Source of the DNA: Accumulibacter sp.
GTDB taxonomy: Bacteria; Pseudomonadota; Gammaproteobacteria; Burkholderiales; Rhodocyclaceae
Direction: 5' to 3'
Length of the DNA stretch: 39,222 bases
Assembly: GCF_029255285.1 (NCBI RefSeq)
Contig: NZ_JAPUVI010000094.1
Location: forward strand, 1-39,222
Positions 17,818-32,039 of the stretch are shown here, piece after piece. The translations under genes and the position numbers were made by a program. Each line of letters starts with the position of its first letter. The stretch's first letter is position 1. The notes under the pieces were generated by a model. It worked only from the letters and a program-made list of their open reading frames with translations. It made no database searches and had not been told where the DNA came from.

Positions 17818-19284
17818 TCAGGCCGGCGCGTATTCGCGAACCAGGCGCTTGTGCAGCAGGGCAACCTGCTTCAGCGATTCCTTGAGGATCAAACGGTCCA
17901 GTTCGTGCAGATCATCGGGATCGACGCGGTTGCCGGCACCGCGTTTCACCTGTTGCTCCAGCCGGACGCGCTGAATATGCTGAAAAGCATCGATCAGCGT
18001 CGCCGTGTGCTCGAGCGGCATCCCGATTCGCTCGCCGGTAAGGCGCAAACGTTCGACGGTATTCGTATCTGGGATTTGCCTGGCCAGTGCATGAATACGC
18101 GCCGCGTCGACGAAGGGGCGAGATCCATGTTTTTTCAGGTCGATGGTGTGCGGAAATTCCTTGTCACCATCGTAGCGGAAACCGTTCCACCAGTTCAGCG
18201 GCGACTCCCAGTTCATCGTGTTCTCGACCATTGCGCGCAGAAAAATGGGGTAGGACGGCGTGCGCGCCAACAGCCAGCTACGCAGTTCGTTGGCCAGGGA
18301 CTCCTGGCCATACAGAGCGCGCAGATCGAAGAAGATGCTCGAATTGAGCAGGGCTTCGGGCTGCGGACACTCCAGCCAGCCGGCGAAGGCCGTCCGCCAC
18401 TCCTCGGTAGACAGGCACCATTGCGGGTTGCTGGCCATGATGTTGCCCTTGCACAACGGGAAACCGCAGGCGTCGAGTGCCTCGTTGACCGCCCGGGCAA
18501 ACGGCAGGAAAGCTTGGCGGAGGATGGCGGCCTCCTCGTCCGACTGGGCGGCGAAAATCAGGCCATTGTCCTGGTCGGTGGCCAGCGTCTGTTCGAGCCG
18601 CCCTTCCGAACCGAACACGAGCCAGCACCAGGGCACATAGGGCAGATCGAACTGGCCGGATACCAGTTCGATCACCTGCAGGGTCAGCAGATCGTTCAGC
18701 GAGGAAAGCCGATGGCACAGAGCGTCGGCACTCACACGTTCGGCAACCAGCCGGGCGACAAAGGCGCGAATCTCGCCGGCCAGGGAGACCAGCGTCGGGA
18801 TGTCGCCAGCGGCGAGAATCGCTCGCACCAGGTCAGTGCCTTGGGCGTCTGGCAGGGAATACAGGTCGGTCTGCGAGACGAGGTTGAAGTAACTGCCGTC
18901 ACTTTCGGTAAGCACCAGATGGCGTACGCCACGCCGTACCATCACGACACTCGCCTGGTGGGCGGTACTGTCGGCAGGTATGGTAATCAGGCCGCCGGTC
19001 ATCACCGCGGCGATCGGCGCCGACAGATCAGCGCCCTCGATGGCGATACGGCGCACCACATCCTGCAGCGTGACGATACCGAGCGGAACCCGGCGATCCG
19101 CATCGACGACGACGACCGCATCGGCGCGCAAGCGGTCGAGAAGCAGCAGAACCTCGCGCACGCTCGCCGACGGATCGACGGTCAGCGGCCGACCACGAAC
19201 CAGATGCCGCAGCGCGACGTAGGGTGAATAGGGCGCGGCAGGCGTCGTCGGGTGCTCGGCCGGCTCAGTATTTGAGCCGCGCAT
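17818..19284 (-). CDS. CBS-pair and DUF294 nucleotidyltransferase-like protein
   Basis: In this 488-residue cytoplasmic protein, residues about 25-145 form two CBS motifs (R-P-L-T-V-D-P-S-A-S-V-R-E-V, L-G-I-V-T-L-Q-D-V-V-R-R-I, then P-A-D-S-T-A-H-Q-A), which usually bind adenine nucleotides. Residues 225-240 carry the DUF294 nucleotidyltransferase signature G-S-E-G-R-L-E-Q-T-L-A-T-D-Q-D-N, with the paired acidic residues D237 and D239 expected to bind metal, as in GlnD-type uridylyltransferases. A DUF294 C-terminal helical domain follows. Its start overlaps the end of the exonuclease gene by 20 bases, so the two are translationally coupled. In other proteobacteria this protein is often found with acetate-type symporters; the substrate it modifies is not known. 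Confidence 0.9.
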   Translation of the reverse strand: MRGSNTEPAEHPTTPAAPYSPYVALRHLVRGRPLTVDPSASVREVLLLLDRLRADAVVVVDADRRVPLGIVTLQDVVRRIAIEGADLSAPIAAVMTGGLITIPADSTAHQASVVMVRRGVRHLVLTESDGSYFNLVSQTDLYSLPDAQGTDLVRAILAAGDIPTLVSLAGEIRAFVARLVAERVSADALCHRLSSLNDLLTLQVIELVSGQFDLPYVPWCWLVFGSEGRLEQTLATDQDNGLIFAAQSDEEAAILRQAFLPFARAVNEALDACGFPLCKGNIMASNPQWCLSTEEWRTAFAGWLECPQPEALLNSSIFFDLRALYGQESLANELRSWLLARTPSYPIFLRAMVENTMNWESPLNWWNGFRYDGDKEFPHTIDLKKHGSRPFVDAARIHALARQIPDTNTVERLRLTGERIGMPLEHTATLIDAFQHIQRVRLEQQVKRGAGNRVDPDDLHELDRLILKESLKQVALLHKRLVREYAPA

Positions 19285-21448
19285 GGTAAGTTTTCTCGCT
19301 GGCCTCGCGCGCTTGGCGCAGCGTCGTGATCCCCATTTCGGCGAGCAGCGGCAGCATTTTCAGAAAGACTTCGCCGGTCACCATCGCGTCGCCGAGTGCC
19401 GTATGACGCCCGAAGACCGAAACTCCCAGCCGCTCGGCGATCGCCTCCAAACGGTGTGAGCTCTGGTTCGGGTGCAGAACGGCCGACAGCAGCAGGGTAT
19501 CGAGCACCGGTTGTTCGAAGCGAACCCCGGTCTGTTTCTCCTTGAGTTGCAGGAAGCGCATGTCGAAAGCCGCGTTGTGGCCGACCAGAACCGTGTCGGC
19601 ACAAAACGCCTGGAACTGCGGCAGGACGACCTCTATCGTCGGCTGTCCGACGAGAAGTTCGCGGGTAATTCCGTGCACCTCGACCGATTGCGGCGACAAG
19701 TTACAGCGCGGATCGATCAGTTGGTCGAAACACTCATGGCGCAGGAGGCGCCGATTGACGATACGCGTTGCGCCGATCTGGATGATCTCGTCGCCCTGAG
19801 AGGGCTGCAGGCCAGTGGTTTCGGTATCGAATATCGTGTAGGACAACTCGACCAGCGGTCTGTCGTCGAGTTCGTGGCTGACTCCCGACCAGCTGAAGAT
19901 GTCGAAGTCGTAGAACTCGGGGCGGTCGTCCTCGTCGGCGGCCACGATGGTCCGCGGCAGATCCTTGGGCGCCGCGGCGGCCGGCAGCATGGTACGAAAG
20001 ATCGCGCGATGTGAAACGCGCACCCGCTGAAACCAGATCTCGCCGTTGCAGCGTTCGATCACGTCGACGACGCTGAGCGGCGACGATTCACCGCCGCCGG
20101 TCATCGGATCTTGCAGCCAGCTCATCGCCGTCTCGTTGTTCATGAAGGTGCCGAGCCATGACAGGTCGAGCTGCGCCAGCTGACCACTGCGCGTCAAGGA
20201 AAGCCGTACCTCGCGGACCTGGTACTCGTCCTGCAGGCGCAGTGCCAAGTAGCGCAGCGCCTGCAGAAGTCCGAAGCTGTCCACCCGCACCCACAGGTCT
20301 TCATCGACCTCCTCGGTCTTCACGGCCAGCGCGCGCCGCTCGCTGGGCCGGCGCTCGCCGATGCGCCGCGCGGCCACCTCGAGCAGTTCCGCACCGAGTA
20401 TTTCCTCGAGCAGCCAGCGTTCGCGCAGGTCTTTCGAGAAGGCGCCCTCGGCATTCTCCAGTTGCGCCGACAACACCTTGGCCTCGTCTCGGATGACGTT
20501 GAGGAAACGGTCACGCTGCCGGGGCGGCATGTCCGAGAAATCGGCCAGCATTTCCGCGGCGGCCCGAATGCTGCCCAAGGGCCCGCGCCCACCCTCGATC
20601 AGCGACTGGATCAAGGCATCGCGCCTGGCGTGCCGCTCGTTGGTCGTCGTCACGTCGTCGAGGACGAGGACGAAGCCGGTGATGGAATAGCCGCCAACTC
20701 GCGCGGCGTGTTGCCCCTCGCCACCGAGCACCGGCGACATGTGGGTACGCATCAGGCGTCCGGAGCGAGTGGCGGTGACAAACTGCGCCGAACCGATGAG
20801 TTTTCTGCTCTCACCGCTGGCCTGGTCGCGGCTGGCCTGTTGCAGCCGTTCGAGCGCGTGCTCGATCAGCGCCCGATCGAAAACGGTATAGATCGAACGT
20901 CCAAGGCCAAGCAGTTCGCCGGTGCTGCCGTCTGCTCCGGCAGAGAGTTCCTGCTTGGCGCGCTGGTTGTAGAGCAATACCCGGCCATCGAGATTGCACA
21001 CCACGACACTCTGGCTCAGGTCGGCCATCAGCGCTGCCAGGCGACTACGCTCCTCCTCGAGCGAAGCGCGGGCCTCGCGAACACGCTCGGCGACGTCGCG
21101 TTCGAGCGTGTCGCGTACGGCGAGCAGTTGATTGGCCGCTTGCGCCAGCGCCCGCAGTTCCTCCGCTCCCTGCTCAGGCAAACGCAGTCCGCTGTGCGCC
21201 GCCTTCGCCGCGAGTTCCTCGGCCAGGCGCAGCGTGGCGCCGACGTAACGATGGTAAAGCCGGGCCAGCACCCAGCAAGCGAGTGCAGCGGCCACCAGGG
21301 CGAGCACCGCCAGTGCGACGACTCTCTCCTCGATCGTCCGGCCACCCGCTTCGCTGGCCGCCATCAAGCCCGCGCTGGCCAGCACCAGGACAAGCACGAA
21401 CAGGCACAAGGTCACCGCCGCCAGCACGAGCTTGCGCGTCGGGTTCAT
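19265..21448 (-). CDS. Membrane PAS/degenerate-kinase protein fused to a DEDDh 3'-5' exonuclease
   Basis: The protein is 727 residues. Two membrane helices (about 8-31 and 42-63) precede a HAMP-like coiled linker, a PAS domain (about 137-266: A-L-M-A-D-L-S-Q-S-V-V-V-C-N-L-D-G-R-V-L-L-Y-N) and a histidine-kinase-like region. In that region the dimerisation helix reads I-E-G-G-R-G-P-L-G-S-I-R-A-A-A-E-M-L (284-301), so the phospho-acceptor His is replaced, by Glu285 if aligned to H-E-L-R-T-P-L; the ATPase part also lacks clear N and G boxes. From about 535 comes a DnaQ-type exonuclease: F-D541-T-E543-T-T-G, V-H-G-I-T, V-G-H-N-A-A-F-D, and H-T-A-L-G-D-A, with all DEDDh residues in place. It starts three bases after the receiver gene stop. 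It is likely a signalling protein whose output is nucleic-acid cleavage; cytoplasmic facing is inferred. Confidence 0.88.
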   Translation of the reverse strand: MNPTRKLVLAAVTLCLFVLVLVLASAGLMAASEAGGRTIEERVVALAVLALVAAALACWVLARLYHRYVGATLRLAEELAAKAAHSGLRLPEQGAEELRALAQAANQLLAVRDTLERDVAERVREARASLEEERSRLAALMADLSQSVVVCNLDGRVLLYNQRAKQELSAGADGSTGELLGLGRSIYTVFDRALIEHALERLQQASRDQASGESRKLIGSAQFVTATRSGRLMRTHMSPVLGGEGQHAARVGGYSITGFVLVLDDVTTTNERHARRDALIQSLIEGGRGPLGSIRAAAEMLADFSDMPPRQRDRFLNVIRDEAKVLSAQLENAEGAFSKDLRERWLLEEILGAELLEVAARRIGERRPSERRALAVKTEEVDEDLWVRVDSFGLLQALRYLALRLQDEYQVREVRLSLTRSGQLAQLDLSWLGTFMNNETAMSWLQDPMTGGGESSPLSVVDVIERCNGEIWFQRVRVSHRAIFRTMLPAAAAPKDLPRTIVAADEDDRPEFYDFDIFSWSGVSHELDDRPLVELSYTIFDTETTGLQPSQGDEIIQIGATRIVNRRLLRHECFDQLIDPRCNLSPQSVEVHGITRELLVGQPTIEVVLPQFQAFCADTVLVGHNAAFDMRFLQLKEKQTGVRFEQPVLDTLLLSAVLHPNQSSHRLEAIAERLGVSVFGRHTALGDAMVTGEVFLKMLPLLAEMGITTLRQAREASEKTYHARLKY

Positions 21449-21451
21449 GGC

Positions 21452-21820
21452 CTACATTCCCAGCAGCTTACGCACCTCGGTGAGCAGCTCCTTGGTGGAA
21501 AAAGGCTTGGTCATGTAGCCATCGGCGCCCAGCCCCAGGCCTTTGCTGACCTCGGTGTCACGTCCCTTGGCAGTGAGCATCAGGATACGCGTTCCGCTCA
21601 GGTCGGGGTCGGCACGCAGCGCCTGGCAGACATCGAAGCCGTTCATCTTCGGCATCATCACGTCGAGCAGGACCAGATCGGGCCGCTCAGCACGTACGCT
21701 GGCCAGCGCTTCCTCCCCGTCGGCGGCCACCAGCACGTCGAAACCCTCGCGGCGCAGCAGGAACTCGATCGAGATGACTATGTTCTGCTCGTCGTCGGCA
21801 ATCAATATTCTCTTGCTCAT
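21452..21820 (-). CDS. Stand-alone response-regulator receiver (CheY-like)
   Basis: The 122-residue protein is a single REC domain: D9-D10 acidic pocket, phospho-acceptor D53 in L-L-D-V-M-M-P-K-M-N-G, T83 and K105 (G-Y-M-T-K-P-F-S). There is no DNA-binding or enzymatic output domain. I chose the ATG at 21818-21820, preceded by GGAG at good spacing and giving the usual M-S-K-R-I-L-I-A-D-D-E start; ATGs 5-6 codons upstream are less likely. It lies between the symporter-kinase (36 bases) and the exonuclease fusion (3 bases), so its most likely partner is that kinase. Known CbrB/CrbR partners carry DNA-binding domains, so this arrangement differs. Confidence 0.93.
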   Translation of the reverse strand: MSKRILIADDEQNIVISIEFLLRREGFDVLVAADGEEALASVRAERPDLVLLDVMMPKMNGFDVCQALRADPDLSGTRILMLTAKGRDTEVSKGLGLGADGYMTKPFSTKELLTEVRKLLGM

Positions 21821-21856
21821 CAACACTCCGATCATCAAAAGACCACGCTAAACTAC

Positions 21857-24610
21857 CTACGCCACCGTCGCCTCCACGTTTGCCTCGGCGAAGGGCAAGG
21901 TGAAACGGAACGTGGCGCCCTCACCCGGCACGCTCTCCACCCACAGCCTGCCGCCAAAGTGCTCGACGATGCGCCGGCTGATCGGCAATCCGAGCCCCGT
22001 ACCCGACGGCTTGGCGGTCATCGTGTCGCCGACCTGGCGGAACTTTTCGAAAATCAGTTCCTGATCCGCCGGACGAATGCCAGGCCCGTTGTCGGTCACA
22101 CTCACTTCGAGTCCATCCGCCAGGGCCCGCAGACCGACGCGTACACGACCCGTACCCGGGGCGAGAAACTTCACCGCGTTCGACAGGAGATTCAGCATGA
22201 CCTGGATCAAGCGATCGCGGTCCGCCAGAATCGGCGGCAAATTATCGGGCAGATCGACATCGACCTGCGCCTCTTTTTCGCGAAAGAGCTGACTGGTCGC
22301 AGCGATAGACTGTTCGACGACTTCCTTCAGGTCGAGTTCACAGCCATTCCAGTCGGCCCGGCCCGACTCGATCTTCGCCAGGTCGAGCGTCTGGTTGATC
22401 AGGCGCGTCAGTCGCTCGGCCTCGCTGACGATCAGTCCGAGAAAACGTTCGCGGTCGGCCAGATGCATCTTCGGATCATCGCGCAACAGCTCGGAGAAGG
22501 CGCGGATCGAAGTCAGCGGCGTACGCAGTTCGTGCGTCACCGACGACATGATGTCGTCCTTGACGCGATCGAGTTCCTGGAGGCGCTCGTTGGCCTCTTG
22601 CAACTCGAGCGTCGCCGCGGTCAGTTCGCGTGACTTGCGCTCCAGTTCTCGACTGTAGGTCCGCAGTTGTGACGCTTCGTCGAGAATGTGCATCACCTCG
22701 TCGATGCTGAGCGGCTCCTCCTTGGCCACCGAGGCGACCATGACGCGCGCCGAGGCGCTGCCGATGGCACCGGCGAGCAGCGATTCGGCGAACTGCACGA
22801 GTTGCGCGTCGGCCTCCAGCGTGACGAGCTTGCCGCGGCCCTGCCGGCGCGCATAGGCGGCGAAGGCGGCCTGCGCGCGCGCCGGACCGAGAAAGCGGCC
22901 GACCAGTCCCTGCAGGTCGCTGACCTTGGCCCGTCCGCGCCACAATACGGCGCCAAGCTGTCCAGTATCCTTCAGCGCATCGACAAAAACCGTTGCCTGG
23001 GTCGCCTCGGCGACCATCGGCGGCCGCAGTAGCGAAACTCCGACATAGGCGCCGATGTTGGCGAACAGGCTCCAGAACAGGCAGTGCGAGATCTCGTCCA
23101 GACCGGACAAGCCGAAAAGCTGCTGCGGCCGCAGCAGTTCGATGCCGAACATTCCCTGCGTCAGGAAAGCGGCGGGCAGCCAGCCCGACTTGGCAAACGA
23201 CGGCAACAACAAGGTATAGCCCCAGACCACAAAGCCGGCTGCCAGACCGGCGAGGGCTCCGCCACGGGTGCCGCCTCGCCAGTACATGCCGCCGATCATG
23301 GCTGGGGCAAACTGGGCCACCGCCGAGAAGCTGATCAGGCCGATGGCGACCAGCGCATACGCCTCGCCGGCCAGCCGGAAGTAGAGATAACCGAGCAGCA
23401 GGATGGCGACGATGGCGCCGCGCCGGATGCCCAGCAGCAGACCCGACAAGTCCTTCGACTCTTCCAGCGACTGCCGCTTGTGACGCAGCAACAGCGGCAT
23501 CACGAGGTCGTTGCAGACCATGGTCGACAGAGCGATGGTTTCGACGATCACCATCCCGGTCCCTGCCGAAAGGCCGCCGATGAAGACCAGCAGCGTCAGG
23601 CCCTCGTGCCGTTGCGACATGGGCAAGGTGAGGACGAAGGTGTCGGCGTCGACGCCCTGTCCCGCAAAGTGCAGCAGGCCACCGAGCGCGATCGGCAGGA
23701 CGAAGATGTTGATCAACAGGAGATAAAGCGGAAAAAGCCAGGCCGCGCGTTTGAGGTGCGCCTCGTTGACATTCTCGACCACGGCGACCTGGAACTGGCG
23801 GGGTAGGAAGAGCAGCGCCATCGCCGACAGGACGATCAGCGCGAACCAGCCCGTATAGCCCTGGCCGGACGGTATCGCGCTCACCAGATGGCGCAGATCG
23901 GGATGTGTCGCGACGTGCTCGAAGATATCGCCCAGGCCGTTGTAGATGCCATAGGTGACGAACACGCCGACCGCCAGGAAGGCCACCAGCTTGACGCCCG
24001 ACTCCAGTGCAATGGCGGCCACCATGCCCTCGTGGCGTTCCGTCGCATCGAGATGCCGGGTACCGAAGACGATCGTGAAGGCGGCCAGAATCAGGGCGAT
24101 GTAGAAGCTCATGTCGGCCGCCACCGACATCGTCGCGCTGCGACCAGGCATGACGATTTCCGGGTAGCTGAGCAGCAGGCTGACCGTGCTCGACATCGCC
24201 TTGAGCTGCAAGGCGATGTAGGGAATGATGCCGACCACCGCGATGACCGTCACCAGGCCTCCGAGCAGATGGCTCTTGCCGTAGCGCGACGAAATGAAGT
24301 CGGCGATCGACGTGATGCGGTTGGCCTTGACGATGCGGATCATCTTCAGGAGAACGAACCAGCCGAGCGCCATGACCAACGTCGGGCCCAGGTAGACCGG
24401 CAGGAAGCCGATTCCGGAGACGGCCGCCCGTCCGACGCTGCCGTAGAAGGTCCAGGTGGTGCAATAGACGGCCATCGACAGGGCGTAGATCGTCGGGTTG
24501 GCGATGATCGACTTGCCCTGGTCGGCGCGTCTGTCGCCCCACCAGGCGACGGCAAACAGCAGCCCGAGATACAACAGCGCGGCGGTTATGACGACCGGAG
24601 CTTCGAGCAT
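21857..24610 (-). CDS. Sodium:solute symporter-histidine kinase fusion (CbrA/CrbS-like)
   Basis: The protein is 917 residues. Residues 1 to about 500 are a complete SLC5-type (SSS) transporter with some 13 helices (T-T-W-T-F-Y-G-S-V-G-R-A, S-I-A-D-F-I-S-S-R-Y-G-K, S-A-G-T-G-M-V-I-V-E). A STAC domain follows (about 545-640, F-V-D-A-L-K-D-T-G-Q-L-G), then a coiled coil and a kinase with H693 in S-S-V-T-H-E-L-R-T-P-L, N box N-L-L-S-N-A-V-K-F, and G boxes D-N-G-P-G-I and G-T-G-L-G-L. CbrA and CrbS proteins of this design control carbon use, including histidine and acetate, in pseudomonads and vibrios. CbrA is known to transport histidine; the substrate here is unknown. It is preceded after 10 bases by a CbrX-like gene. 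No PAS domain is evident, which is nearer CrbS than CbrA. Confidence 0.93.
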   Translation of the reverse strand: MLEAPVVITAALLYLGLLFAVAWWGDRRADQGKSIIANPTIYALSMAVYCTTWTFYGSVGRAAVSGIGFLPVYLGPTLVMALGWFVLLKMIRIVKANRITSIADFISSRYGKSHLLGGLVTVIAVVGIIPYIALQLKAMSSTVSLLLSYPEIVMPGRSATMSVAADMSFYIALILAAFTIVFGTRHLDATERHEGMVAAIALESGVKLVAFLAVGVFVTYGIYNGLGDIFEHVATHPDLRHLVSAIPSGQGYTGWFALIVLSAMALLFLPRQFQVAVVENVNEAHLKRAAWLFPLYLLLINIFVLPIALGGLLHFAGQGVDADTFVLTLPMSQRHEGLTLLVFIGGLSAGTGMVIVETIALSTMVCNDLVMPLLLRHKRQSLEESKDLSGLLLGIRRGAIVAILLLGYLYFRLAGEAYALVAIGLISFSAVAQFAPAMIGGMYWRGGTRGGALAGLAAGFVVWGYTLLLPSFAKSGWLPAAFLTQGMFGIELLRPQQLFGLSGLDEISHCLFWSLFANIGAYVGVSLLRPPMVAEATQATVFVDALKDTGQLGAVLWRGRAKVSDLQGLVGRFLGPARAQAAFAAYARRQGRGKLVTLEADAQLVQFAESLLAGAIGSASARVMVASVAKEEPLSIDEVMHILDEASQLRTYSRELERKSRELTAATLELQEANERLQELDRVKDDIMSSVTHELRTPLTSIRAFSELLRDDPKMHLADRERFLGLIVSEAERLTRLINQTLDLAKIESGRADWNGCELDLKEVVEQSIAATSQLFREKEAQVDVDLPDNLPPILADRDRLIQVMLNLLSNAVKFLAPGTGRVRVGLRALADGLEVSVTDNGPGIRPADQELIFEKFRQVGDTMTAKPSGTGLGLPISRRIVEHFGGRLWVESVPGEGATFRFTLPFAEANVEATVA

Positions 24611-24620
24611 CGTGGGGCGG

Positions 24621-24821
24621 CTACTTGACGCGCCGTTCGACCGCCCAGGCCATCAGTCCGATGACGAAGGCCCAGGCGGCGAAAACGTAGGCATAGACCA
24701 GCGGCAGTTCGAAGATCACGGCGTGGCGATCGAACACCGAAAGCAAGGGGTAGTTGAAAAGAGCACAGCCGACCAGGAAGGCCGCGATCAGCCGGTCGCC
24801 CGCCAGAATCCTGCGATGCAT
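24621..24821 (-). CDS. Small two-helix membrane protein (CbrX-like)
   Basis: The 66-residue protein has two predicted membrane helices (L-I-A-A-F-L-V-G-C-A-L-F-N-Y-P-L-L and Y-A-Y-V-F-A-A-W-A-F-V-I-G-L-M-A-W-A-V-E) and a basic end. I chose the ATG at 24819-24821, five bases after GGGAGG; a GTG two codons earlier is possible. It is ten bases upstream of the symporter-kinase gene. Pseudomonas cbrA is preceded by a comparable small membrane gene, cbrX, needed for proper cbrA translation. The position and topology agree, so I infer a coupled or accessory role; sequence identity cannot be judged here. Confidence 0.8.
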   Translation of the reverse strand: MHRRILAGDRLIAAFLVGCALFNYPLLSVFDRHAVIFELPLVYAYVFAAWAFVIGLMAWAVERRVK

Positions 24822-24950
24822 GTCCACCTCCCGTCTCGTTTGTAGCGACCCGGTAGCCGTCAGATCATCTGGACGACTTGCCCGTCGTCAACGTCACCAC
24901 GTCCACGGCTATACTGCCGCTCCTCACTTCTCGCCGATGAAACTGCCGAC

Positions 24951-29927: not shown

Positions 29928-30806
29928 TCAGACGCCGTGTTGTTTGAACCACGCCTGCAGCCGCCGCCAGCCGTCCGCCGCTTCTTCTTTGCGGTAGCTG
30001 GGTCGGTAGTCGGCGTGAAAAGCGTGCGGCGCGCCATCGTAGACGTGGATCGTCGACGCTTTGCTCGGCGCGTTGGCGGCGCTTGACAGGGCTTGGCGCA
30101 TTTGCGCGACGGTGTCCAACGGAATGCCCTGATCGGCGCCGCCATAAAGCCCGAGTACCGGTCCGTGCAGCTTGGCGGCAATGTCCACCGGCTGCTTCGG
30201 GGTCAGCTCGCTGGCCGGGCCGACGAGTCGGCCGTACCAGGCGACGCCAGCCTTGACTTGCGGGTTGTGCGCGGCGTAGAGCCAGGTGATCCGGCCGCCC
30301 CAACAAAAACCGGTGATGCCGAGTCGGGCAGCGTCGCCACCGTTGGCCGCGGCCCAGGCGACGCAGGCATCGAGATCGGCCATGACCTGCGCGTCCGGCA
30401 CCTTGCCCACGATGTTGCTCAGCAGATCCTGGACGTTGGCGTACTGCCGCGGGTCTCCCTGACGGGCAAAGAGTTCGGGCGCGACGGCGAGGTAGCCGAG
30501 TTTGGCCAGGCGCCGGCAAATATCCTTGATATGCTCATGTACTCCCCAGATCTCCTGCACCACGAGGATCACCGGCCAGTTGCCGCCCGCTGCCGGCTGC
30601 GCGCGATAAGCCGGCAGCTCGCCGCCGGCGGCGGCAATCTTGATTTCGCCGGCGCTCAGGCCGGCGCTGTCGGTGCTGACCACCGTTTCCGCCGCCACTG
30701 GCTGTACCGCCAGCGCGAAGCCGGCGCCCAGCGCGGTGACGACGAACTGGCGGCGACTGAAGGGAACGGCAGGAACGAGACTGTCGAAATCGGACGAATG
30801 CGTCAC
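29928..30806 (-). CDS. Dienelactone hydrolase family protein, exported
   Basis: I chose the GTG at 30804-30806: a perfect AAGGAGAG ribosome site precedes it, and an upstream ATG at 30854 has none. The resulting 292-residue product carries a Tat-like signal ([19 protein letters not shown]) and then an alpha/beta-hydrolase of the dienelactone hydrolase type. Features are [16 protein letters not shown], nucleophile Cys168 in G-F-C-W-G-G, Asp in Y-G-G-A-D-Q-G-I-P and His in A-P-H-A-F-H-A-D-Y. Classic members open lactones in chloroaromatic breakdown, but exported relatives are common and act on unknown esters. Its start region is divergent from the small ORF and AhpD-like gene, with an inverted repeat between. 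Confidence 0.9.
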
Positions 30807-30830
30807 GTTTCTCTCCTTACAGGGATAAAG

Positions 30831-30868
30831 GTTGTTGTTTATTTTGTGTATCATGCCATGACAACAAC
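30831..30868. promoter_or_regulatory. Inverted repeat in the divergent promoter region
   Basis: GTTGTTGT (30831-30838) and ACAACAAC (30861-30868) flank an AT-rich 22-base spacer between the dienelactone hydrolase start and the small ORF at 30891. It could be an operator for both transcripts. Confidence 0.35.
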
Positions 30869-30890
30869 TACTCGGACCATGGAGAACTCT

Positions 30891-31055
30891 ATGAATTCAC
30901 CCGATTACCACACCCCTGCAATTCGGCCAGGGGAGCGAAGCGCGCGCCTCGTCCACCCTGTTGGCCCGGTGGCCTTCGTTTTCATGGTGCGCGGGGTGGC
31001 GTCGTGCCCGACTGCCGTCGAGTCGAAACCGCGCTCCGCCGCGAGGAGGGGTTGA
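30891..31055 (+). CDS. Small ORF (54 aa), unknown, possibly coupled to the AhpD-like gene
   Basis: The ATG at 30891 follows GGAGA at suitable spacing and the frame ends in TGA three bases before the ATG of the AhpD-like gene. The product reads [16 protein letters not shown] ... [11 protein letters not shown] and is basic overall; I recognise no family. It may be a real small protein or a leader peptide whose translation opens the next ribosome site. Confidence 0.4.
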
Positions 31056-31058
31056 GTA

Positions 31059-31637
31059 ATGGACAAGCCGATCAGTCGTTTCCCGGTTCCGGCCATCGCC
31101 GAGTTGCCCGAAGACGTGCGCCAGCGCATTCTCGCCGTGCAGGAGAAGTCCGGTTTCGTTCCCAACGTCTTTCTCACTCTGGCCCACCGGCCGGACGAGT
31201 TCCGCGCCTTCTTTGCCTACCACGATGCGTTGATGGAGAAGGACAGCGGGCTCAGCAAGGCCGAGCGCGAGATGATCGTCGTCGCCACCAGCGGCGCCAA
31301 CCAATGCCAGTATTGTGTCGTGGCGCACGGCGCCATCCTGCGCGTGCGCGCCCGCAATCCTCTGCTCGCCGACCAGGTTGCCGTGAACTATCGCAAGGCC
31401 GACCTCACGCCTCGACAACGGGCGATGCTTGATTTTGCACTCAAGGTGGCTCTCCGCGCGGCCGAGGTCGACGATTCCGACCTGGCAACGCTGCGCGAGC
31501 ATGGCTTCAGCGATCAGGACATCTGGGATATCGGCGCCGTGGCGGCGTTCTTCGCGATGTCGAATCGCCTGGCGAACATGACTTCGATGCGCCCCAACGA
31601 CGAGTTCTTCCTGATGGGGCGACTGCCCAAGTCTTAG
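31059..31637 (+). CDS. Peroxidase-related AhpD/CMD-family protein
   Basis: The 192-residue protein is of the uncharacterised peroxidase-related (alkylhydroperoxidase AhpD core) family. The carboxymuconolactone-decarboxylase-like fold carries the redox motif Q-C83-Q-Y-C86-V-V-A-H90-G, expected to reduce peroxides or partner proteins. Conserved blocks are F-V-P-N-V-F-L-T-L-A-H-R-P, S-K-A-E-R-E-M-I-V-V-A-T-S and the family ending N-R-L-A-N. GGAGGGG lies upstream of the ATG. It is divergent from the exported dienelactone hydrolase, and the two could share control during oxidative or aromatic stress. Confidence 0.9.
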   Translation: MDKPISRFPVPAIAELPEDVRQRILAVQEKSGFVPNVFLTLAHRPDEFRAFFAYHDALMEKDSGLSKAEREMIVVATSGANQCQYCVVAHGAILRVRARNPLLADQVAVNYRKADLTPRQRAMLDFALKVALRAAEVDDSDLATLREHGFSDQDIWDIGAVAAFFAMSNRLANMTSMRPNDEFFLMGRLPKS

Positions 31638-32039
31638 GCGGTGGCCCGACACGCCAAGTGCGCCTGGTCGCAGAGCTCCCGTTGGTGAATCCTGTAACCG
31701 CCCATGGCCGACCCGAACGTTCGGCCAGAGCGGCGCCGCGACTTGCTGCGACGACTTTTTCCGCGCGTTTGAGGGGGGCAGGCGAACGATGACGACGACC
31801 GGCCGGCTTCGCCGCTCCTGGCGCGGTCTATTCGCCCGGCTCCTGCTCAGGCAACTGGCGAGTGCATTCAATACCCAACGGTTGTCCCAGCGCGTTCTGG
31901 TGCCGCAGCTCATCGGGCGGCTCGACCGCTATCCGATCAGTCTTGGTTTCCTCGATCGCTCGGCGCCTGCCTGCTGCGCCAACCGGGCAGCGTGCCATCG
32001 GCCGGTGGCGACTGAGCGACACCGCTGCTAGGCGGCACC
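31638..32039. other. Intergenic region before the hybrid kinase; one weak ORF
   Basis: It contains a perfect 12-bp palindrome CCGAACGTTCGG at 31713-31724 and a possible ORF at 31789-32031 (ATG after GAGGGGGGCAGG). The ORF would give an 80-residue basic protein, M-T-T-T-G-R-L-R-R-S-W-R-G-L-F-A-R-L-L-L-R-Q-L-A, without recognisable family and stopping nine bases before the kinase start. It may be real or just upstream sequence. Confidence 0.35.

Follow-up and report, generated by a model that had tools for sequence, protein, structure and literature searches.

To which output does a nutrient-linked sensor kinase signal when the receiver encoded beside it has no DNA-binding part? This question is raised by five minus-strand genes on contig NZ_JAPUVI010000094.1 of Accumulibacter sp. 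(RefSeq assembly GCF_029255285.1, genome of 4.19 Mb). The whole stretch of 39,222 nucleotides that was analysed is called the window here. The genes encode a CbrX-like membrane protein, an SLC5-STAC histidine kinase, a lone receiver, a DEDDh exonuclease fused to a degenerate kinase part, and a CBS-DUF294 protein. Outputs of two-component systems are mostly DNA-binding, cyclic-nucleotide or chemotaxis proteins. An earlier sequence-only reading of this operon proposed a non-transcriptional branch, in which nutrient uptake would set exonuclease or nucleotidyltransfer activity. The present analysis favours, with moderate confidence, a monocarboxylate signalling module in which the kinase would act via the lone receiver on a DHp-type docking domain carried by an exchangeable output protein.

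The kinase-receiver core and its two proposed outputs

A phylum-wide sample of 398 genomes was searched, and 176 contain an SLC5 kinase match with E <= 1e-90. Two classes were distinguished, namely a hybrid, CrbS-like class with open frames of more than 1100 residues, in which the match stops at about profile position 660 to 710, and a non-hybrid, window-like class of about 890 to 1030 residues with a full-length match. A single genome can hold a hybrid SLC5 kinase together with a non-hybrid, exonuclease-linked one, as seen for example in G464 and G541. The 61 non-hybrid loci that were read comprise the window, L160 and 59 of 60 fetched stretches. L269, which also carries ScfR, lay below the score cut-off and was left out, as was the partial match G540. 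At 55 of the 61 loci, a lone receiver (one whose frame ends at most 40 residues from the receiver match) is encoded on the same strand within 7 kb. The exonuclease fusion is found at 24 loci and ScfR at 27, with both together at none and neither at 10. ScfR, the short-chain fatty acyl-CoA regulator (Pfam PF09856), is described as a family of acetate and propionate regulators, of which RamB binds esters of coenzyme A (CoA) and regulates the glyoxylate cycle of strain PD1222 (PMC10370305). The DUF294 gene lies within 9 kb at 23 of the 24 exonuclease loci, but at none of the 27 ScfR loci. The acetate permease ActP is encoded within 9 kb at 12 loci, and the acetyl-CoA synthetase gene acs at seven.

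The two alternative outputs have one part in common. All 28 sensor-linked ScfRs (27 from the sample and L169 of Neorhizobium SOG26) contain an inserted DHp hairpin with an H-box histidine, whereas this insert is absent from eight of eight unlinked ScfRs fetched from plasmids. No SLC5 kinase was found in the stretches of 13-15 kb around these eight. In hhalign comparisons, the ScfR insert matches the pseudo-DHp of the exonuclease at 97.0% and the kinase DHp at 98.2%, with four control comparisons at 1.6% or less; the pseudo-DHp matches the kinase DHp with a probability of 98.1%. By profile comparison, the ScfR insert, the kinase DHp and the exonuclease pseudo-DHp are thus assigned to one family. 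Among the literature matches listed, no paper deals with a DHp insert in ScfR.

The receiver also accompanies the pseudo-kinase in stretches that contain no SLC5 kinase. In the alphaproteobacterial family f256, 149 genomes were searched and 72 have an exonuclease match, either in a long form with the pseudo-kinase or in a short form. The 20 best-scoring of 27 long exonucleases were fetched; the remaining seven were not included, nor were 19 matches that were ambiguous or split. A receiver directly precedes the exonuclease in 20 of 20 cases, and no SLC5 kinase is present in these stretches of 5.6 to 10.5 kb. For the short exonucleases (frame of at most 510), the profile search found an adjacent receiver in 0 of 26, with about 16 kb as the shortest distance to any receiver on the same contig; this count was made without a contig-end check, and receivers with E above 1e-18 would escape it. 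As positive controls, five of five long exonucleases, all among the 20, gave receiver scores of 166-228 bits next to the exonuclease. Short exonucleases without a pseudo-kinase that stand beside DUF294 and ActP, with no receiver, were seen at L328, L334, L339 and L340 as well as in f256. In a named genome scan, an adjacent receiver was found for 36 of 52 full-length fusions, against 1 of 27 DEDDh proteins that are partial or of another kind. The 52 fusions have an SLC5 kinase within 6 kb in 22 cases, DUF294 within 9 kb in 39 and ActP within 10 kb in 28. Because receiver and pseudo-kinase occur together, a predicted route from receiver to exonuclease is supported.

The gene group as a whole is conserved well outside the genus. 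Of the sampled genomes, 54 of 61 from the family and 2 of 40 from other families of the order have a match to the exonuclease fusion with a best E < 1e-160. Around strong exonuclease matches 40 stretches were fetched, four of which lacked a qualifying exonuclease frame and were left out. In the remaining 36 loci, where the frame reaches the N-terminal part, an SLC5 kinase was seen in 25, acs in 15 and actP in 14; these were counted by hand over five called genes on each side, with some genes fragmentary and some missed by the open reading frame caller. In same-genus loci the association exceeds chance, with receiver and DUF294 in the 3-5 kb around the exonuclease in 28 of 28 and the kinase in 27; the one exception is a contig of 3 kb. 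When 369 genomes of the class, own genome included, were sampled evenly, 25 had an exonuclease match at E <= 1e-40, and 12 of the 19 new stretches looked at have an SLC5 kinase near the exonuclease. In some of them the order is reversed, as receiver - exonuclease - CbrX - kinase; this speaks for function above the mere inheritance of a gene string. The same five genes, gene for gene, lie on plasmid 1 of Paracoccus denitrificans PD1222 (PDEN_RS25395 to RS25415), and Rhodobacter capsulatus (L314) has a receiver - exonuclease - DUF294 - ActP string. The earlier expectation that the neighbourhood of the exonuclease fusion extends beyond close relatives therefore holds: the gene group is conserved across families and classes, PD1222 included, and the opposite outcome was not found. 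No paper on the operon as such is among the literature matches listed.

The five proteins of the window

All five minus-strand frames are present in the window, and the genes are as the sequence-only reading had described them. The gaps of 10, 36 and 3 bases and the one 20-base overlap are likewise right, given a receiver start at 21820.

The SLC5-STAC histidine kinase (21857..24610, minus strand, 917 aa) is not hybrid. Its 13 hydrophobic segments agree with an SLC5-type membrane domain; the Pfam domain search gave no SSF match in the symporter part. Over its first approximately 700 residues, it shares 41-44% identity with hybrid SLC5 kinases. LGPx(x)A is described as the motif of the STAC domain between the SLC5 and kinase parts (PMC4834066), and the STAC assignment here is made by this motif, seen as LGPARA at residue 574. 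The kinase has HisKA and HATPase_c matches. Its DHp domain (HisKA match, 22361..22561, minus strand) has an intact H-box, and the phospho-acceptor His693 is invariant in 13 of 13 aligned kinases. No Response_reg match lies within the kinase, which therefore lacks the hybrid form of CrbS/CrbR. It is the single full-length SLC5 kinase match of the genome.

Upstream of the kinase lies the gene of the CbrX-like two-helix membrane protein (24621..24827, minus strand, 68 aa; GTG start, with an ATG at 24821), with hydrophobic segments 7-25 and 36-64. A homologue precedes the kinase in many relatives and is located within 1.5 kb of it at 37 of the 61 phylum-sample loci. CbrX is reported to bind the transporter domain of CbrA and to co-purify with CbrA (PMC13022988). 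On plasmid pAZKH of Azoarcus sp. KH32C (L165:7790-11186), the gene after that of a CbrX-like protein encodes a direct fusion of an SLC5-type protein with GGDEF-EAL, which is a cyclic-di-GMP output on the same sort of sensor.

The lone receiver (21452..21820, minus strand, 122 aa) is CheY/Spo0F-like; it has an ATG start, and its open frame extends to a TTG at 21838. It carries the phospho-acceptor Asp, acidic partner, T/S and Lys of a single-domain response regulator and no output domain. Response_reg is the sole match above cut-off, in line with the earlier description of a receiver without a DNA-binding output. Among the phylum-sample receivers, D53, D10 and K105 are kept in 55 of 55, as is T or S at position 83. 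Receivers of the exonuclease form and of the ScfR form differ at eight positions, several of them around residues 87-109. These differences may reflect output contacts or merely ancestry and are not used as evidence.

The fourth gene encodes the membrane-anchored exonuclease fusion (19265..21448, minus strand, 727 aa), which consists of two hydrophobic segments, a PAS-like part, a pseudo-DHp, a pseudo-CA and a DEDDh domain. PAS matches were found in homologues; in the window protein itself, the domain search gave none at threshold. The pseudo-DHp (20414..20641, minus strand, located by hhalign), the proposed receiver-docking part, has E in place of the H-box His, and HisKA scores 18.6 bits on the fusion, below the cut-off of 26.9. 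Across 35 aligned exonucleases the H-box position is E in 16, D in 11, Q in two, P in two, and M, S, R or V in one each; His occurs in none of the 35, nor in a separate alignment of 26 homologues. The degenerate CA (ATPase) lobe (19979..20353, minus strand) matches the kinase CA with 96.4% in hhalign. In the profile alignment, the N-box Asn and the G1 Asp of the window protein are replaced. Thus, the kinase part lacks the H-box His and the ATP-binding N and G1 boxes of a histidine kinase, and without the His this form also differs from a Spo0B/ChpT-type phosphotransfer DHp. The DEDDh exonuclease domain (19364..19834, minus strand; RNase_T, 121 bits) is intact, with D541, E543, D629, H682 and D687 invariant in 26 of 26 and 35 of 35 homologues. 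These D-E-D-H-D positions we take to be the catalytic residues. The PolC or DnaQ function suggested by Pfam and NCBIfam names was rejected because the match is confined to the nuclease domain. A second full-length exonuclease fusion, 50% identical to the window copy, is encoded elsewhere in the genome (G000:C73:48312-50459; L073:8310-10517). No kinase, receiver or DUF294 was seen in the stretch read around it, and it may share the receiver of the window operon.

The last gene (17818..19284, minus strand) encodes a putative nucleotidyltransferase of 488 aa with CBS-CBS-DUF294-DUF294_C architecture (CBS, DUF294 and DUF294_C matches). G225, S226, D237, D239 and D320 are invariant in 17 of 17 and at least 90% conserved among 26 homologues, which gives the GS and DxD type active-site motifs of GlnD/GlnE-like or DUF294 nucleotidyltransferases. 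Among the structure matches listed (60 of 166), the best stretch lies in the CBS part and none in DUF294. The genome has three DUF294 matches. Contig C29 (L071:5285-12600) contains a cluster of acs, a cyclic-nucleotide (cNMP)-type DUF294 gene, an ActP-like symporter gene and a DUF4212-like gene, where the names acs and DUF4212 were assigned by reading the sequence; this is perhaps a portion of the acetate cluster located apart from the window operon.

The pairing of exonuclease and DUF294 genes is not restricted to this operon. In Pseudomonas putida, PP_0354 (a CBS-domain protein) and PP_0353 (with an RNase_T match) form one operon, and ErdR binds the PP_0354 promoter (PMC9927547, PMC8402216). 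This pair, equated with that of the window by domain descriptions and not by alignment, is described as a target operon of MxtR/ErdR (CrbS/R), and a PP_0353 mutant grows poorly on pyruvate, likewise mxtR, erdR and actP-I mutants; the authors speculate on mRNA degradation (PMC9927547). Pflu5625, a protein with cAMP-binding, CBS and nucleotidyltransferase domains, belongs to the CrbS/R regulon (PMC5715377). DUF294 adjoins a small DEDDh exonuclease at L336 and L341 (Syntrophomonadaceae) and at L351 (Pelagibacteraceae), with an ActP-like symporter within about 5 kb. In view of these three loci, where no SLC5-type kinase is close by, the pair may predate its link to two-component signalling.

An observation unrelated to the operon concerns contig C55 of the same genome (G000:C55, approximately 30000-32000; L072:56-1782). 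It contains a repeated translated motif, GFNPRAPREERA / CRALLTGRAWIET, which resembles a repeat array and is possibly CRISPR (clustered regularly interspaced short palindromic repeats).

Proposed mechanism and alternatives

In the favoured reading, the SLC5-STAC kinase would sense or carry the nutrient and phosphorylate the lone receiver, as suggested by homology and the intact residues. Acetate or a similar monocarboxylate is the probable nutrient, because acs and actP recur beside the module. PA3232 to PA3235, actP among them, are reported to rise on propionate (PMC9765439). The phosphorylated receiver would not bind DNA, but may dock on a separate output protein at its DHp-type four-helix domain, consistent with their correlated presence. 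In the window, this output would be the membrane-anchored DEDDh exonuclease with its dead kinase part, and docking might switch or relocate the nuclease activity. Since the H-box His is missing and ATP-site residues are replaced, the exonuclease would receive a docking signal and not phosphate. In the ScfR form, where the insert keeps its His, the receiver may for this reason be a phosphate donor, comparable to Spo0F towards Spo0B. CBS-DUF294 could work with the nuclease and sense adenine nucleotides through its CBS domains, perhaps acting in the opposite direction on the same target. The likeliest candidates for such a target would be SLC5 symporters such as ActP, or the RNAs encoding them.

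A more far-reaching version treats the His-less DHp as an exchangeable receiver socket. Depending on lineage, the core would be plugged into a transcription factor, with a true phosphorelay to the DHp His, or into a membrane exonuclease, the H-box of which mostly has an acidic residue where the His would be. Under two-component control, the exonuclease would then take a nucleotide off a common target and DUF294 would put one on. The most probable target would be an SLC5 monocarboxylate symporter or the RNA encoding it, so that uptake of acetate or pyruvate would be controlled directly and without transcription. This version is speculative and rather unlikely as a whole, and nucleotidylation and removal by the pair is a guess.

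Several observations weigh against the favoured reading, in addition to the limits of the f256 count given above. The co-occurrence counts are not phylogenetically independent and carry no correction for phylogeny. Neither output was found at 10 of the 61 kinase loci, several of which are cut by contig ends; L218 and L242 lack receiver and output, and L225, L250 and L254 have the receiver without ScfR. In the genome scan, 10 of the 36 exonucleases with a clear pseudo-DHp score have no adjacent receiver. These 10 comprise fragments at contig ends (L281, L286), Accumulibacter paralogues (L274, L291), the Desulfuromonas-like L290, L303 and L306, as well as L284, L287 and L301. The genomes of five were searched: that of L274 holds the dedicated receiver elsewhere (220 bits), and those of L284, L290, L303 and L306 have best receiver scores of 102-134 bits, by which a dedicated receiver is neither shown nor excluded. 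The acetate link comes from neighbourhoods, and the window copy itself has no adjoining acs or actP. The PP_0354 mutant, unlike the PP_0353 nuclease mutant, is described as having no growth phenotype (PMC9927547), which speaks mildly against a writer-eraser pair for nucleotidylation and its removal. Finally, other genomes of the family reach CrbR-like scores of up to 136 bits.

The best-surviving alternative is that the receiver is a phosphate sink or feedback part split from a hybrid kinase, and that the exonuclease is a PAS sensor in its own right, merely co-transcribed. In its favour, CrbS is reported to be of the hybrid type (PMC5715377), SLC5 kinases of that type are frequent, and some pseudo-DHp exonucleases lack an adjacent receiver, as listed above. 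When descent from a hybrid-kinase receiver was examined, however, the link proved weak: the lone receiver matches that of one hybrid SLC5 kinase over just 49 residues (E 2e-5). Moreover, in f256 the receiver tracks the pseudo-kinase even with no SLC5 kinase in the stretch (20/20 vs 0/26). This alternative is considered unlikely.

Quite improbable, in turn, is an ordinary two-component system, in which the receiver would signal to an unlinked Hpt protein or DNA-binding regulator and the exonuclease and DUF294 genes would only be co-regulated, as PP_0354/PP_0353 are under MxtR/ErdR. The normal phospho-acceptor residues of the receiver fit this explanation, as does the binding of ErdR to the promoter of the P. 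putida operon. It was confronted with a search for CrbR-type regulators, in which the query was not CrbR itself but the regulator that adjoins a hybrid SLC5 kinase in Azospirillum thermophilum. The best match in the window genome reached 74.5 bits with 31% identity and is no clear orthologue, whereas the same query scored 164-200 bits in each of 10 genomes that have hybrid CrbS-type kinases. A DNA-binding partner elsewhere in the genome, which would have spoken against the sequence-only reading, is thus not apparent among CrbR-type regulators, and a scan of the operon genes and flanking frames showed no sigma-54 activator CbrB. Further points against co-regulation only are the DHp homologue borne by the exonuclease, and the way in which exonuclease and ScfR substitute for each other beside the receiver.

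A role of the exonuclease/DUF294 pair in nucleic-acid defence or DNA repair, with its place in the operon due to chance, was set aside as very improbable: the exonuclease does match the PADLOC model for a CRISPR-associated DEDDh protein (134 bits) and two models for defence candidates (85-98 bits), but these matches are limited to the nuclease domain, DUF294 and kinase are unmatched in the PADLOC library, and the phylum-wide neighbours are SLC5 kinase, receiver, actP and acs.

For the lineage of the window, the comparative data leave the non-transcriptional branch as the better-supported reading. The proposal does not extend to the module in general: many alphaproteobacteria have the same kinase-receiver core with ScfR, a DNA-binding protein, and the non-transcriptional form is therefore one of two interchangeable outputs. 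If the docking route is correct, a sensor kinase that ends on an exonuclease via a dead-kinase docking part would be a new type of output. Such an output would occur across many Pseudomonadota, including the polyphosphate-accumulating genus Accumulibacter. It would also offer leads on what the conserved DUF294/exonuclease pair does beside actP, and on why one ScfR subgroup is coupled to a two-component system.

Comparison with known systems

The closest parallel is CrbS/CrbR (MxtR/ErdR) of Vibrio and Pseudomonas, which shares the SLC5-STAC histidine kinase and the link to acetate or pyruvate. Its circuit also contains CBS/nucleotidyltransferase-type and exonuclease genes, there as transcriptional targets (PP_0354/PP_0353, Pflu5625). 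CrbS, a hybrid kinase, passes its signal to the regulator CrbR, whereas the window kinase is not hybrid, its receiver is separate, and no CrbR orthologue was found in the genome. The CbrX-CbrA/CbrB system of Pseudomonas likewise has a small two-helix CbrX ahead of an SLC5-STAC kinase. It differs in its partner CbrB, a sigma-54 activator (PMC13022988), since the window operon has no such adjacent partner. RpuS/RpuR of Sinorhizobium fredii uses an SLC5-STAC kinase for a monocarboxylate, pyruvate, but is described as acting via a LuxR-family regulator on the permease MctP (PMC9100948).

The ScfR family (RamB, PccR, MccR, PrpR) resembles the window system in that its members regulate acetate or propionate metabolism, and one subgroup fills the slot of the exonuclease with a homologous DHp. 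In contrast, its output is DNA-binding, described members bind CoA esters, and the eight unlinked ones examined are without the DHp insert. In the Spo0F-Spo0B phosphorelay and other lone-receiver relays, a lone receiver meets a DHp domain that has no kinase activity. The window system would follow the same principle, with the difference that its DHp sits on an exonuclease and has no His.

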